This document shows, piece after piece, positions 3,790 to 42,864 of a stretch of DNA of 64,000 nt (position 1 is its first letter; every line of letters begins with the position of its first letter). The DNA comes from Halorussus sp. MSC15.2 (GTDB lineage Archaea; Halobacteriota; Halobacteria; Halobacteriales; Haladaptataceae): positions 124,001-188,000 of the forward strand of contig NZ_VSLZ01000005.1 in NCBI RefSeq assembly GCF_010747475.1. Reading direction: 5' to 3'. Below the pieces are notes generated by a model. It had not been told where the DNA came from. It made no database searches and saw nothing but the letters and a program-made list of their open reading frames with translations. The position numbers and the translations under genes were made by a program.

Positions 3790-3999
3790 TCAGATGTAGT
3801 GGGCGGCGACGTACGTGAGCAGGGCGAGTCCGACGAACGGGATGACGTGCAACATGAGGGCGGTCACCTGAATGAGGAAGTCCGGCGGATACGGCGACGT
3901 GAGGAGGAACAGGAAGACGAAGAACGCGATGATGACCATCGGGATGATGTTCACCGAGATGTCCAGCAACTTCTCGCGGTCGAAGACGGAGTCGGCCAT
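3790..3999 (-). CDS. Small two-helix membrane protein, DUF6684-like
   Basis: This is a 69-residue protein starting MADSVFDREKLLDISVNIIP. It has two hydrophobic helices (about residues 16-36 and 46-66) joined by a TSPYPPDFLIQV loop. I associate this layout with the haloarchaeal DUF6684 family, which often sits near respiratory oxidase genes; that name is from memory. The ATG at 3999 is preferred over an upstream ATG because a good Shine-Dalgarno sequence (AGGAGG) ends about eight bases before it. The zinc-ribbon gene at 4071-4466 is immediately upstream, suggesting co-transcription. Function is unknown. Confidence 0.75.
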   Translation of the reverse strand: MADSVFDREKLLDISVNIIPMVIIAFFVFLFLLTSPYPPDFLIQVTALMLHVIPFVGLALLTYVAAHYI

Positions 4000-4070
4000 T
4001 GTGCCTCCTAGGGAGGTCACGGAGCGGTATAACGGCAGTGGCCCCGCGGGCGCGATTCGACTCCGCAACC

Positions 4071-4466
4071 TCACTCGTAGAGTAACTGTTCGGCCTGTGT
4101 CCGTCGCCGGTCGGGGTCGAAAGTCGGATCGATTTCGGGGTCGGCGGCCAACCGGTCCAACACCAGTAGGGGGTCGGTCCCCCCGCGCTCGACGCGCTCC
4201 AGCAGGTCCGCAATCTCGCTCCGATAGAGCGCCAGCGAGTCGAGGAGACCGACCGCGAGTGCCATCGCCACCCCGGCGTCGCCACCGGGGAACGCATCAC
4301 TGACGGCCGAGAAATCGGGGTCGTCCTGCGTGGCGGCGTCGGTCGGGTCGAGACGCAGACAGTGAGTGCAGAGCGTCGCGGACGCGCTCTGCTCGGGAAG
4401 TGACTCCCGGAGGTCTTCCGGAACGCCGAACGTCACTCGCTCGCTTCCGCAGTCTGGACAGGTCAT
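4071..4466 (-). CDS. Zinc-ribbon hypothetical protein, DUF6276-like
   Basis: A 131-residue protein opens with MTCPDCGSERVTFGVPEDLR. It carries a second CxxC (LCTHCLRLDP) at residues 33-36, so four cysteines (3, 6, 33, 36) can form one zinc ribbon. The rest is predicted helical (GVAMALAVGLLDSLALYRSE, then LLERVERGGTDPLLVLDRLA) and ends with an acidic/basic mix. This matches a haloarchaea-only family that I remember as DUF6276. No enzymatic motif is present. It precedes the small membrane gene by 71 bases on the same strand. Likely a cytosolic protein or nucleic-acid binder, but that is inference. Confidence 0.75.
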   Translation of the reverse strand: MTCPDCGSERVTFGVPEDLRESLPEQSASATLCTHCLRLDPTDAATQDDPDFSAVSDAFPGGDAGVAMALAVGLLDSLALYRSEIADLLERVERGGTDPLLVLDRLAADPEIDPTFDPDRRRTQAEQLLYE

Positions 4467-4599
4467 ACCGTAGCATGTTCGCGGGCGGTGAAAAACGTCC
4501 GTGACGCGACGAAGTCGTCGTCGGCACGCAGTGACTTCCTCGTGAACGAGTGAAACGAGGCGAACGGGAGAGGTGAGCGAGTGAGAGAGACGTTCGTCG

Positions 4600-5298
4600 T
4601 CAGTCGTCTGCGGTGACGACTTCCTCTTCCGCGGCGGCCTCGGCGGCGGCCGCGGCGCGTTCCTCCTTCTCCTCTTCTTCCTTCTTGGCCTTGATTTTCT
4701 TCAGACGGAAGATTTCCTCGCGCTCCTGCTCTTCGAGTTTCTGCTCGATGTACTCCTGATTCTCCTTGAGTTCCGGCAGTAGCTTGAACTCCAGCGCGTT
4801 CACGCGGCGCTTGGTCGTCTCGATTTCGGTCAGCATCTTCTTCATCGCCGTCTCGACTTCGGCGGCCAGGATGATGCTCTCCAGCAGTTCCTCGTAGGCC
4901 TCGGCGGCCTCGTCGATGCGAGCGCTGGTTCCGAGAACGCCGTAGCCGCGCTCGTCGAGACCCTTGCGAACCTTGCTGGACTCGATTTGGGGCACGACGA
5001 CGCCCATGATGTTCTTGGACTCGGTGGTGATTTCGGGGTGCTCTTGGAGTGCGGCCGCCGCCCCGCGGACCGCCACGTCGCCCTCCATCGCGCGAGCCAT
5101 GTTAATCTTCTGCTGGGCGAGTTCGTAGTTCTCCTCGAGACCCGAGCGCACGTCCTGCGCCTGGTCGAGGATGTCCATGAACTCCATGATGAGACCGTCA
5201 CGCTTCTTCTCCAGCGTGTCGTGGCCCCGCTCGGAGAGTTCGATGCGGTCCTCTATCTGCATCAAATTCTTCCGAGTGGGCTTGACGTCCTTGGCCAT
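4600..5298 (-). CDS. atpD: A-type ATP synthase subunit D
   Basis: Subunit D is the central rotor stalk that couples c-ring rotation to the A3B3 catalytic head of the archaeal ATP synthase. The 232-residue sequence starts [20 protein letters not shown], the highly conserved N terminus (T-x-x-N/E-L-x-x-L/I), and has the two long antiparallel coiled coils (residues 5-75 and 120-205) expected of the family. The C-terminal Ala/Glu-rich tail is haloarchaeal. In other haloarchaea atpD directly follows atpB. Here a 7-kb secreted-protein gene separates them, so atpD needs its own promoter, and a TATA-like element is present at about 5325-5340. Confidence 0.96.
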
Positions 5299-5324
5299 CT
5301 TAGGGGGAGTTTGTGGCTCGAAGG

Positions 5325-5340
5325 GGTTAACCTTTTACAG
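5325..5340 (-). promoter_or_regulatory. Promoter of atpD
   Basis: On the minus strand CTGTAAAAGGTTAACC places an AT-rich TATA/BRE-like element 27-42 bases upstream of the atpD start. This is consistent with separate transcription of atpD now that it is detached from the main ATP synthase operon. Inferred from position and composition only. Confidence 0.45.
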
Positions 5341-5461
5341 TCGGCGCTGACTGGGTGGGGCCGGAACTCGTGAGATACTCATATGTTTACGCCACCCCCT
5401 ATTCGAGAAATAAAGAGGCGGACTGAATCAGTTTACTGGCTCGAAGTTTGCGAAGGTTGGT

Positions 5462-8400
5462 CTACTTCTCGTCGTCGTGAATCTCGTTGACTTCGGTCTG
5501 GTTGAGCGCTCGGTCGTAATATCGGACTTCGTCGATGCTGCCGACGAAGTCGCGGTCCTCGTGATTGACATGGGTCCCGATGTAGAACCCTTTGTCCGTC
5601 GCCGTATTGAGGTTTGTAGACTGCGACCAACCGTTAGTTACACTGGCAACGTTACCGTCGACGTAGAGTGTAGTGTCGCGAAGTGTATTTCCGTTTAGTA
5701 CAATTACGACGTGGTGCCACCTCCCGTCGTTGAGGTTTGTGTTCCAAACGCGGTTACCACCGTTCACTGCGAAACGAGTATTGCCGTTCGTGTTGATACG
5801 GAGGTTGAACGCGTCTCCGTCAGACGGGTTATTTTTGCCCTGTGACACCATGAGTTGTCTATCGTTCGAATACGAGGTCTTGACCCAGAGGGAGATAGCG
5901 CGATTTTCACTTCCGGACACACTGTCGAAGTTGGTCGTCACTTTATCGCTACCACTATGGAACTCGTAAGCGCTTTTTTCGACACCGGCGACGCCGAGCG
6001 TTGGGTTATTACGGACAGTTCCGTCGTGCGGGCCAACTGCGTCGTATGCAGTCGAACCGCTTGTTTCGTCGAGCTTCCAGTGGCTGACAAGTCCATCAGT
6101 CACCACTTCCTGTTTTCTTACAGTAATTCCCACAGTATCAGTAGCAACTGCACCGTTTGCGTCCGTGACGCGAACAGTTGCCTCGTACGTCCCACTGTCC
6201 GAATACACGTGATTTACCGTCGCACCAGTCGCGTCTATCGTCCCGTCACCGTCGAAGTCCCACTCGTAGGTCAGCGAGTCTCCGTCGGGGTCCGAGGAGT
6301 TCGACGCGTCGAACGTCACCGTCTCGCTCACGTTCACCGTCGTCGCCGACGCCGCCGCGTCGGCCACCGGCGCGTGGTTCACCGCGAGACTCCAGCTTTC
6401 GGTGTCAGACTTCCCGTAGCTGTCGGTGACGGTGAGCGTCACCGAGTAGTTCCCGCCGGACCCGTAGGTGTGAGTGACGTCGGCCCCGGTCGCGGTCGTT
6501 CCGTCGCCGAACTCCCACTGGTAAGTCAGCGAATCGTTAGTGTTCGGGTCGCTCGAAGCTGATGCATCGAACTGGACGGTCTCGTCGGGATTGGGTTCGG
6601 TCGGAGTGACGTTGGCCGACGCAGTCGGCGCGTCGTCCACGGTGATGGTACCGGTCGCCGTGTCGGATTCGCCGAACCTGTCAGTAACTCGGAGTTCGAC
6701 CGGATACTCACCAGCCGTGTCGTACCGATGGACCACCGAACTGTTCGAGTCCATCGCAGTCGCGCCGTCACCGAACGTCCAATCGTACGTTAGCGAGTCG
6801 CCGTCGTTGGGGTCCGACGAACTACTACCGTCGAGTTTGACTGCCTCCGAGGTGTTCAGCACGGTCCGGTTGGCTATCAGATAGGCCGCAGGCGGACTGT
6901 TCACCGTGACCGTCACCGAGTCGGTGGCGGTCAGTCCCTGCTCACCCTCGACCGTGACCGAAACGTCGTACCTTCCGGCGGACTCGTAGGTATGGTTGAC
7001 CGTTGCGTCGAGCGCGGTTGTCAGGTCGCCGAGCTTCCACTCGTAGGACGTAACGTTACCGTCGGGGTCGGTGGCGTTCGCCTCGAACGTGTGTTCGACG
7101 TCCTCTGTAACGTTACCGGGGTCGCGTATCTGAACCGATGGCGGATACGTGACGACGACGGACTGAGTGGTCGTGTTTGTCACACCGTCGTCATCAGTGA
7201 CCCGAAGCGTGACGTTCGCCGTGCCGGTCTGGTTGAACTCGGTCGAGATGGACTCGCCAGTCGCTTCGTAGTCGCCATCAGTATCGAGGTCCCACTCGTG
7301 AGTGACGACGTTACCGTCGACGTCGAAGGCGTCGGTCGCACTCAGCGTCACCGACCGATTGACAGCGACTACGGACTGGTCGATAACCGGTGTCGGTCCG
7401 CGGTTCGTGACGTTGACGGTGTGGGTAGCGGTCGCCGTCCCGTTGGCGTCGTCGGTCACGCGTACCGTGACGTCGTGCGGTCCGTCGTCGCTGAAGGTCG
7501 GGTGAATCGTACGACCGGACTGCTCGAATGTCCCATCGTCGTCTACGTCCCAGTCGTAACTGACGACCGTTCCGTCGGGGTCGCTCGCGTGGACAACTTC
7601 GACAGTCGCGGTCTCGTACGTCCGGGTGCTATCGGTGCCATTCACGGTGACACTCGGCGGAGCGTTCACTTCGACGACTTTCCGAACGACGACGGTCTCG
7701 TTGTGGTCGTTAGTACCGCGCATCCGGACCGTCTTCGTTCCGTTCGTCGAGAACGACCGAGTAGCGTTCCAACCCGTCGTCTCGTAGACACCGTCGTCGT
7801 CGAGGTCCCACTCGACTCGCTTGATGTGGTCGCGATAGCCTTCGACGGTGGAGGCGTCGAACGTAACGCTCTGACCGACGGTCGGGGTCGACGGCGTCGC
7901 GTTGACGAACATCGGCGTCGCCCGCGTGAGGTTGATGTGCCTGAGATGGGCCGTTCCGTTACCGTGGAATTCGACGATAATCTCGGTGTTAGCCCAAAGC
8001 CTCGGCGGGACGAGCGCACTGAGTGTGACGTTCTCGTCGGCAGTCAGGTTGATAGACGCAATCTTGACTCGGGGGAAGTTCCGCGTATCTGCCCAGATTG
8101 TCACCACGGTATCGCCGTCGATACCACCGACGGTGGCGTTGACCTTTTGCCAGCCGTCAATCCCGCTGCCTGTTTGCGTCCCACCACTGGAGTTGAGCGT
8201 GATGTTCCCCGGGCCAGTGCTGATACCGTCCTCGGTGACGTTCGTCCGGTCGATTCCCGTTCCGTTTCCGTCGGGGAACGAGCTGAAGTTGTCCGTCGTA
8301 TCGTTGACCGTAAAGACGGTCGAATCCCAGTTACTCTTCCGCCCAGCGAGGTCGACGGCACGTCCGCGGAGTTCGTAGGTACCGGGACCTGCCTCGAAGG

Positions 8401-38910: not shown

Positions 38911-40683
38911 TTACATCGACCGGGGCGCGGCGACGCCCAGCACCTGCAGCGCGTTGCCGACCGCGTGCTTCGACGCCGCGACCAGTGCGAGGCGGGCGTC
39001 TCGCAGGTCGTCGTCCACGTCGTCGGCCAGCACCGGGCACTCGCGGTAGAACGTGTTGAACGTATCGGCGATTTCTCGGGTGTAGGTGGCGACTACGTGC
39101 GGTTCGAGGTCTTCCGCGGCCTCCTCGATGACCGCGGGGAAGCGCGCGACGACCGCCAGCAGTTCGCGCTCGGCCTCGGTCTCCAGCAGGGAGGCGTCGA
39201 AGCCCTCGGCGACCGGGGCGGTGCTAGCGGGGTCGATTCCGGCCTCTTCGAGAATCCCGCAACAGCGAGCGTGGACGTACTGGACGTAGGGCGCGCTCTG
39301 GGCCTCGAAGTCGAGCGCGCGGTCCCACTCGAAGGTGATGGCCTTCGTCGGTTGCTTGGAGACGATGTCGTACCGGACCGCGCCGATGCCGACCTGCTCG
39401 GCGATGCGCTCTACGTCCTCGTCGGTCAGGTCGTCGTCGCGGATGCGGTCGTCGAGTCGGGTCTCGACCTCCTCGCGGGCGCGGTCGATGGCCTCGTCGA
39501 GCAGGTCGTCGAGGTCGATTCCGGTGCCCGCGCGCGTGGACATCTTGCCCTCGGGGAGATTGACGTAGGAGTAGATGACCTGCCGGAGGTCGTCGGTGTC
39601 GTTGCCCAGCAGTTCGAGCGTCGCGTTCATCTGGCGGGCCTGTAGCTTGTGGTCCTCTCCGAGGACCGTCACGGCGCGGTCGTACTCGTCGAACTTCCAC
39701 TCGTGGTGGGCGAGGTCCCGGGTCGCGTAGAGCGTGGTGCCGTCCGACCGGAGGAACACGAAGTTCTTCTCGATGCCGAACTCCTCCAAGTCGAGTTGCC
39801 ACGCGTCTTCCTCGTAGACGGCCTCGTCGAGTTCCTTCAGGCGCGAGACCACGTCGTCGGCCGACCCGTCGCGGAGGAACCGGGTCTCCTTGACGAACTC
39901 GTCGAACTCGGCGGGCAGGCGGTCGAGCGTCTCGCGCATCCCGCCGAGGACGGTGTCCACGACCTCCTGCACGCGCTCGTAGGTCTCCTCGTCGCCGGAC
40001 TCCAGCCCCTGCATGATGGCCTGAATCTCGTCTTCGGCCTCCTCGACTTCGTCGGGGTCGCCCTCCTCCAAGAACTCGTTACCTATCCGGTAGTAGCGCA
40101 CGAGGTCGTAGTCGGCCTTGTCGCGCTCCGGGTCCGGCAGGTCGTCTTCCTCGAAGGTCTCGTAGGCCCACGTGAAGACGGCCATCTGGCGGCCCGCGTC
40201 GTTGACGTAGTAGTGGCGGTCCACGTCGTTGCCCGCGAACGCGAGGATGCGCGCCACGGCGTCGCCGACGATGGGGTTGCGCGCCCGCCCGACGTGGACC
40301 GGGCCGGTCGGGTTCGCGGAGGTGTGTTCGACCACGACCTCCTCGCCGGTCGGTTCGAGGCGGCCGAAGTCCTCGCGCTGGGCCGCCTCGGCGGTGCCCT
40401 CGTAGTAGGCGTCGCTCGGCGCGAAGTTGACGTACGGTCCCTGCGCGGCGGCGGCGGCGACGAGTTCTGACTCACTCGCGTCGATTGCGTCGGCGAGGTC
40501 GGCCGCGACCTTCGGCGGGGGTGCGCCGACTTCCCCGGCGAGTCGGAACGCCGCGCTGGAGGCCAGCACGGCGTCTACGCCCTCGGGCGGGTCCTCGACA
40601 CCGAGGTCGTCGGTCGGGAGGTCGAGCGTGTCGAGTGCGGAGGTCAGAAGCGCCTCCACGTCGTCCCGGAACTGGAGATACAT
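38911..40683 (-). CDS. argS: Arginyl-tRNA synthetase
   Basis: ArgS charges tRNA-Arg. The 590-residue class I synthetase starts [20 protein letters not shown]. It has the HIGH-equivalent region [20 protein letters not shown] (about residues 117-136) and a KMSKS-equivalent [13 protein letters not shown] near residue 380. The anticodon-binding DALR domain ([20 protein letters not shown] ... [13 protein letters not shown] ... [20 protein letters not shown]) completes it. The length is typical. The gene is convergent with, and directly abuts, the 44-residue membrane gene. Confidence 0.97.
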
Positions 40684-40776
40684 GTTACTCGTTGGTTTTC
40701 GACCGGCGGATAAATGGGTTTCTGAAGCGTGACAGTCGGTCCGCGCGGTCGGCCGGTCGGCACTCCGTTCCGTTCG

Positions 40777-42864
40777 TTACTCTCCGACGCCCTTCCGGGG
40801 CATCCCGGTCTCTCGGACGGCCCACCGAAGCGCATCGGCGAACCGGAGCGGCGAGTCGTAGCCGTCGGCGGAGTCGGCCGCGAGCGCCCGCGAGAGGACC
40901 GCGTCGAGTTCGTCGGGTCGGTCGGGGTCGGTCGCGGAGCCTCCGAGTAGGCCGGCGGCAAGCACCGCGAGACGGTCGCCGTCGGCGGTCTCCGGGTCGT
41001 CGTTCGGTTCCGTCGGCCGAACGGGTGACTCGGCGCGGCGCGCGGCAGCGAGTCGCCAACCGCTGACTCGAACCTCCCCGTCCGACAGCCAGAGGGTTCC
41101 GGGGCCGAGTGCGCCGTGCGTGACGCCGGCGCGGTGAGCGCGGTGAACCGTCTCGGCCGCATCGGCGAGCGCGTGGGCGAGGTCGGCAGTCGGCAGGTCC
41201 TCGGCGCGGTCGGCGAGGGATGCGTCTGCTGGGTCGGTGGCGACCCACGGCGACGGTTCGGTACCCCACGTACGGACGGCGAGGACGCCCCGAACGTCGA
41301 GGTCTGCCCACTTTTCGACGGCCGCCTCGAAGGCGTCGTCCGCTATCGCGTCGGGGGTGACTCGCGTCAGCGCGACGCGGTCGCCCGCCGGGTTCCGGGC
41401 CTCGAAGACCTCTGCGGAGTCGGACCCGGCGAGGCGGTCGCCGAGTTCGAAGTCCGCGATTTCGGTCGGGGTCGCCGAGTCGCCGCGGGCGTCGTAGTCG
41501 GGGTCGCGACGGCGATACGCTCGCGCGAGGACCGCCGCACCGACGAGACCGCCGACCGCGAGAGCGACGGGCGAGGTGGCGGTCCGGTAAGCGTCGTAGA
41601 GCGGCGTCGAATCGGGCGACGAGAGGGCGTAGATGGTGCCCGACCCGGTGACGAAGTAGACCCCGTCGTCGGTGACCTGCGGCAACCACCGCGAGCGGCC
41701 GGGATGGTCGAACCGCCACCGGAGACGGCCGCGTTTCGCGTCCAGTCCGTAGACGGCCTCCGCCTCACTGTCTACGACGACTGTCCCGTCGGTGACGCCG
41801 ACGACGGACGCTCGGGCGTCCGCGTCCGTCGAGAAGCGCCATCGTCCGGTTCCGTCGGCGGTCGAGACAGCGTGGACGCCGCCGCGCGTACCGAAGTACG
41901 CGGTCCGGTCGTCGATTCGGGGCCAACCGACAACCGGGCCGCCCGCGTCGTATCGCCAGCGTTCGGTCCCGCCGGCGGTCGAAATCGCGCGGAGTCGCCG
42001 ACCGTCGCCGAGGTACGCCGTGTCCTCCAGAACGACCCCGGGAAACCCCCTCTCGTCCGCGTCGGCGTCGAATCGCCACCGGAGCGCCCCGTCGTCGCAG
42101 TCGAACCCGTACAGTCGCCCGGTCTCGTAGCCCCACGCGAGCACGACGTCGTCGGTCACGCCGGCGACCGAAAACCGCGGCGTACCGTCGGCAGAGCGGT
42201 CGGCGTGCCAGCGGACGCTCCCGTCCGTGGCGGAGAGCGCGTACAGATGACCGTGCGTCGTCCCGGCATAGAGGGTGTCACCGTCGAGGTGGGGGTTGAA
42301 CCAGAGCGAGTCGTCCGGTCGGAATCGCCATCGCTCGTGTCCGTCCGACGCCGCGACCGCCGCGATACCGTCTTCGTGAACGAAGACCGTCTCGGGAGTC
42401 ACGAGCGAGACGTCCACGTATCTCTCGGCGACGCCGCTCTCGCCAGCGTACCGCCACCGGGTGTGACCGTCTTCGGCGTCGAGCGCCTGGATTCCCGCCC
42501 TGCCTTCGGCGTAGACCACGCCCGTTCCGGGGTGTATCTCGACCGGATGGTCCGCACCGTCCCTCGCTATCCGGCGACGCCACCGCTCGCGTCCGTCGGT
42601 CGAGAATCCGCGCACGCCGGTCTCGGTCGTGAGGTAGACCGCGTCGTCGGCCGCCGACCCGCGAAGTAACGGCTCCTCGGTCTCGGTATCGACGGACCAC
42701 TCGACTTCGGGCGTCGGCGCGAACGGATGGTCGGGCACGGCGTCGGTCGCGTTCCCGAGAGAGACGTTGCCGAGACTCGCCCGACGGTCCGTGACGACCG
42801 ACGGCGCGACGCCTCCCGGACCGGCGACCGTGAGAAACTCCCGTCTACTCGGCGACCAGTTCAT
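40777..42864 (-). CDS. Tat-exported PQQ beta-propeller fused to a membrane helix and a pseudokinase
   Basis: The 695-residue protein begins MNWSPSRREFLTVAG, a twin-arginine motif (SRREFL, residues 6-11). Residues about 55-415 hold nine or so PQQ/WD-like propeller blades (for example HTRWRYA, HERWRFR, SVRWHAD, ALRWRFD, TERWRYD, TGRWRFS, RLRWRFD). One transmembrane helix follows (SPVALAVGGLVGAAVLARAY, 431-450). Residues about 470-690 resemble a protein kinase with every catalytic residue lost: Thr500 for the beta-3 Lys, HGALGPGT (582-590) for HxDxKPxN with Ala585, and VSGW for DFG. Propeller outside and pseudokinase inside suggest a sensor or scaffold. Confidence 0.8.
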   Translation of the reverse strand: MNWSPSRREFLTVAGPGGVAPSVVTDRRASLGNVSLGNATDAVPDHPFAPTPEVEWSVDTETEEPLLRGSAADDAVYLTTETGVRGFSTDGRERWRRRIARDGADHPVEIHPGTGVVYAEGRAGIQALDAEDGHTRWRYAGESGVAERYVDVSLVTPETVFVHEDGIAAVAASDGHERWRFRPDDSLWFNPHLDGDTLYAGTTHGHLYALSATDGSVRWHADRSADGTPRFSVAGVTDDVVLAWGYETGRLYGFDCDDGALRWRFDADADERGFPGVVLEDTAYLGDGRRLRAISTAGGTERWRYDAGGPVVGWPRIDDRTAYFGTRGGVHAVSTADGTGRWRFSTDADARASVVGVTDGTVVVDSEAEAVYGLDAKRGRLRWRFDHPGRSRWLPQVTDDGVYFVTGSGTIYALSSPDSTPLYDAYRTATSPVALAVGGLVGAAVLARAYRRRDPDYDARGDSATPTEIADFELGDRLAGSDSAEVFEARNPAGDRVALTRVTPDAIADDAFEAAVEKWADLDVRGVLAVRTWGTEPSPWVATDPADASLADRAEDLPTADLAHALADAAETVHRAHRAGVTHGALGPGTLWLSDGEVRVSGWRLAAARRAESPVRPTEPNDDPETADGDRLAVLAAGLLGGSATDPDRPDELDAVLSRALAADSADGYDSPLRFADALRWAVRETGMPRKGVGE

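Follow-up and report, generated by a model that had tools for sequence, protein, structure and literature searches.

IRE1 and PERK are catalytic kinases in which the sensor has lost the form of a complete propeller, and their export is into the ER rather than by the Tat pathway. A PQQ propeller is held to be the ancestor of the luminal domain of IRE1 (PMC3797127). Other known systems combine similar parts differently: AfsK of Streptomyces joins a PQQ propeller to a kinase that is N-terminal and active, while in the actinobacterial ActPs1 pseudokinases, many of which are without helix G, a dead N-terminal kinase is followed by a C-terminal PQQ_2 domain (PMC12599244). MviN (Rv3910) and EssB/YukC are membrane pseudokinases that work by recruitment (PMC12599244); they have no PQQ propeller and differ in topology and genes. 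Here, we describe a gene of Halorussus sp. MSC15.2, found in a window of 64,000 nucleotides (the whole stretch of DNA analysed), whose product is predicted to share with IRE1 and PERK an exported N-terminal sensor related to PQQ propellers, one membrane helix and a C-terminal cytoplasmic kinase fold, but in which the beta-3 lysine, the alpha-C glutamate, the HRD aspartate and the DFG aspartate of an active Hanks-type kinase are all replaced. The likeness is one of domain order, not a demonstrated common origin of the fusion, and the protein resembles ActPs1 in joining a dead kinase to a PQQ domain, with the order reversed so that the propeller is N-terminal. The original prediction of a new type of receptor or scaffold was too strong, since this arrangement is already known with active kinases in IRE1 and PERK, and ActPs1 carries the two domains in reverse. 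Its companion statement, that the usual fusion has an active, N-terminal kinase, was incomplete, since haloarchaeal proteins such as that of the Halomicrobium sp. LC1Hm plasmid (L063) also carry an N-terminal PQQ propeller and a C-terminal kinase, although in that protein no Tat signal or helix was found and the catalytic motif, HCDLSPEN, is intact. No paper on haloarchaeal pseudokinase receptors appeared in the literature searched, outside which most subscription journals lie.

The gene is an open reading frame of 695 codons that occupies exactly positions 40777-42864 of the window, as first proposed, and it lies on the minus strand, which had been left unstated. Its Tat signal region (residues 1-30; 42775-42864, minus strand, like all features of the gene given below) holds the twin-arginine motif SPSRREFL at residues 4-11, and an RRx[FLM][LIVF] motif near the start is present in all 33 homologues that were aligned. 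The signal is followed by an eight-bladed PQQ-type beta-propeller (residues 48-420; 41605-42723), a single membrane helix recognized by its hydrophobicity (residues about 429-447; 41524-41580) with the basic sequence RAYRRR directly after it, and a kinase-fold domain (residues 471-690; 40795-41454). The 33 homologues are all from Haladaptataceae, the family of the window's Halorussus, and the order first described, twin-arginine motif, propeller, one helix and kinase-like domain, recurs in every one; the motif, the single helix and the arrangement are therefore not products of chance.

The propeller is the only part of the protein that Pfam detects in the window copy (PQQ_2, E=4e-36). Eight G-x3-W blade motifs are spaced regularly, about 40 residues apart, with tryptophans at 95, 137, 179, 219, 263, 303, 342 and 383, and Cake/BamB structures are matched. 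Of the relatives that have names, BamB is one of the closest, yet the TIGR03300 model reaches 109 of 285 bits, under its curated cut-off, and identity as BamB was rejected; the NCBIfam AfsK profile likewise matches the propeller part at 88 of 1300 bits, far under cut-off. A PQQ-dependent quinoprotein dehydrogenase was also considered and rejected, as such an enzyme requires a disulfide of adjacent cysteines where this protein has one cysteine in its whole length (Cys256), and dehydrogenase models score far under cut-off. Because the single cysteine rules out a paired-cysteine cofactor site, the propeller is read as a binding domain rather than an enzyme.

The sidedness of the protein is predicted from its signal and from the charges that flank the helix. 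The N-terminal twin arginine of all 33 homologues is that of a Tat substrate, so that export is predicted from sequence, and lysine and arginine residues within 12 positions of the helix number 105 after it versus 27 before it across the family, the inner side being the more positive in 29 of the 33. This bias would place the propeller outside the cell and the kinase-fold domain inside. The proposal of a Tat-exported propeller outside and a dead kinase inside is thus well supported as a predicted topology.

At least one such protein was counted from match tables in 26 of 28 Haladaptataceae genomes, and the family falls into two subfamilies, type A, to which the window copy belongs and which is linked to argS, and its sister, type B. 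In most type A loci examined, the gene adjoins argS, usually 80-200 bp upstream; in the window, argS is the downstream neighbour on the same strand (38911-40683, minus strand; NCBIfam argS). Just upstream of it, an AT-rich stretch on the minus strand, AAACCCATTTATCC (40705-40725), resembles an archaeal TATA region, by which argS may have its own promoter; a promoter scan found none, its models being of bacterial type with archaeal promoters outside their coverage. One genome (G074) has a tandem pair of type A genes upstream of argS (L049:6492-11371), and at some loci an NhaC-like antiporter adjoins the type A gene. In six of nine type B loci, phnD-phnC-phnE-like genes precede the type B gene on the same strand (L041, 6369-9218; L055, L056, L057, L059 and L061), and in three of nine a PHO4-family permease follows it (L056, L061 and L062). 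At curated NCBIfam cut-offs PhnE and PhnC pass and PhnD falls below, while the nearest NCBIfam name for the PHO4 gene is sulfate permease, also below cut-off. Two irregular copies were seen: the type B copy of the window's own genome (C1; L041, about 3953-6306, minus strand) lacks one base that its closest relative has, a deletion inside the pseudokinase domain that splits the frame and may be a sequencing error or a pseudogene, and a copy in a metagenome-assembled genome (L011:6001-7027) is without most of the propeller and without the helix, which may reflect a deletion or an assembly fault. A search of genome contigs gave one relative, viral contigs gave none and plasmid searches gave mainly propeller matches.

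These neighbourhoods bear on what the protein does. A type B gene beside transporter genes is placed as a sensor might be, and we count this in favour of a receptor. The same protein could instead be a constitutive membrane assembly scaffold, with a propeller like BamB and an inner pseudokinase like EssB/YukC that together hold a membrane or secretion complex, and the kinship of the propeller to BamB, its having no known ligand site and the precedent of EssB/YukC, a pseudokinase that spans the membrane and recruits the machinery of secretion (PMC12599244), all speak for it. Against it, no conserved secretion or assembly genes are adjacent, the neighbours being argS, in part an antiporter, or the transporters of type B, and we consider the scaffold unlikely. 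The phrase 'receptor or scaffold' of the original prediction holds as the best-supported guess.

The inner domain of the window copy has no Pfam match, and when searched as a single sequence it gives faint similarity to kinases (PknI, 0.002; the PERK entry 4yzy, 0.013). A profile was built from the 33 homologous domains, with one protein that has an intact catalytic motif (L038) left out, so that no intact kinase was in the set. Against solved structures, this profile matched Mycobacterium tuberculosis PknB at 4.3e-35 over profile positions 5-229 and nearly the whole length of PknB, and it retrieved 1,099 distinct sequences at E<=0.01; by this profile similarity the domain has the two-lobed Hanks-type fold. 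AlphaFold models were not used as evidence because of their low confidence (pLDDT 42 for the pseudokinase from a two-row alignment and 35 for the whole protein from a single sequence), and a Foldseek search with the low-confidence model, in which kinases ranked first at TM-scores of about 0.2-0.4, was disregarded. Weak PADLOC matches (PD-T4-6 and PglW) most likely arise from the shared kinase fold rather than from a role in defence.

Alignment columns place the substitutions that had been named where they were expected: the beta-3 lysine is T500 (41365-41367), HGALGPGT (583-590; 41095-41118) replaces HRDLKPxN with the catalytic aspartate as A585, and the DFG site reads VSGWR (600-604; 41053-41067), its Mg-binding aspartate being G602. 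Further losses lie beyond those first named, since the alpha-C glutamate is A515 (41320-41322), T590 stands in place of the Mg-binding asparagine and the glycine loop has degenerated, so that closer alignment of the window copy gives no intact catalytic set (T500, A515, A585, T590 and G602). The tryptophan at the DFG phenylalanine site is not itself the mark of a dead kinase, as haloarchaeal kinases with an intact catalytic aspartate also show DW there. Across the 33 homologues, the HRD aspartate is retained once and the alpha-C glutamate never, while the beta-3 lysine persists in eight, the DFG-site aspartate in 17 and the Mg-binding asparagine in seven, and one homologue (L021) reads HED at the catalytic site. 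This partial retention is what would favour a domain that still binds nucleotide or carries out an unusual catalysis, and the protein might then be an atypical enzyme. We regard this as quite improbable, because the window copy has lost lysine, glutamate, HRD aspartate, asparagine and DFG aspartate together, the glutamate is lost in all 33 and the losses are common to the family.

Loss of catalysis might otherwise mark a relic in decay, left from a receptor kinase whose inner domain has become functionless. The gene does diverge fast (whole-gene dN/dS about 0.43-0.50 versus 0.15-0.21 for argS), and the frameshifted type B copy in the same genome and the truncated L011 copy would fit decay. The pseudokinase domain, however, has a dN/dS of 0.32-0.45 against three relatives, indicating purifying selection rather than decay; frames are full length in most relatives, and residues outside the catalytic set are invariant in all 33 homologues. 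These lineage-specific positions are W519 in alpha-C and D677, R680 and W681, the last three within a family-specific C-terminal motif, DALRW (677-681; 40822-40836). A relic is thus very improbable.

The reading that we prefer, and think somewhat probable, is a receptor-like pseudokinase, in which a Tat-exported propeller is joined by a single helix to a cytoplasmic kinase-fold domain that acts by docking without catalysis. The Tat pathway would carry the folded propeller across the membrane to its outer face, and the helix would stop transfer and keep the C-terminal domain in the cytoplasm. What the propeller binds outside may be a ligand, a protein of the cell surface or part of a transporter, and this binding would alter the state, spacing or oligomerization of the inner domain, which we infer to offer a docking or allosteric surface, probably around the invariant W519 and the C-terminal D-x-x-R-W. 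On this account the inner domain would signal by binding a partner rather than by phosphorylation, which we consider probable. Three further haloarchaeal families have proteins with a Tat signal, a sensor, a helix and a C-terminal pseudokinase (L109, L110, L097, L098, L094 and L095). One of these proteins (L094:4670-6697) has a non-PQQ ectodomain and is close to a PQQ version, which suggests that the outer domain is swappable.

The kinase complement of the host lineage gives this reading its context. In the window's own genome, PF00069 has four matches at E<=0.01: a HEAT-repeat pseudokinase (HGALRPGAV), a UbiB/ABC1-type protein, a RIO-type protein and a small protein reading HGDLRGEN, the last three being atypical by our reading. 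Across the 28 Haladaptataceae genomes, the best PF00069 match reaches 53 bits, and none of the 20 matches at E<=1e-10, the matches whose motifs were read, is an intact ordinary-type kinase, all 20 being without the HRD aspartate and reading HGAL, HGGL, HGSL or HTRI. As the own genome also has no FHA-domain match, it seems unlikely that ordinary kinases relay a phosphorylation signal here. The HEAT-repeat pseudokinase is cytoplasmic and is found across Haladaptataceae (L106:1173-3512, L107, L112 and L132-L148), with relatives in family f13. In a quick kinase tree, types A and B group with f13 proteins (SH-aLRT 97) and the HEAT-repeat pseudokinases lie near active kinases (98), which makes repeated loss of catalysis probable, subject to where the tree is rooted. 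In other haloarchaea, many kinase and pseudokinase genes are clustered (G051:C1:1466-1498 kb, G214:C42:50-77 kb, G059:C2, G103:C1, G172:C1 and G122:C6).

If the receptor reading is true, the window protein would be an archaeal receptor in the order of IRE1 and PERK with a kinase domain unable to phosphorylate. More tentatively, Haladaptataceae might be without any catalytic ordinary-type kinase and conduct membrane signalling on dead kinases alone, with two subfamilies of Tat-exported receptor pseudokinases, of which one is linked to the uptake of phosphonate/phosphate, and a cytoplasmic HEAT-repeat pseudokinase, all docking without phosphotransfer. The family seems to keep the ordinary kinase fold in dead form only, and would in that case offer a clean natural case of what the kinase fold does without catalysis.
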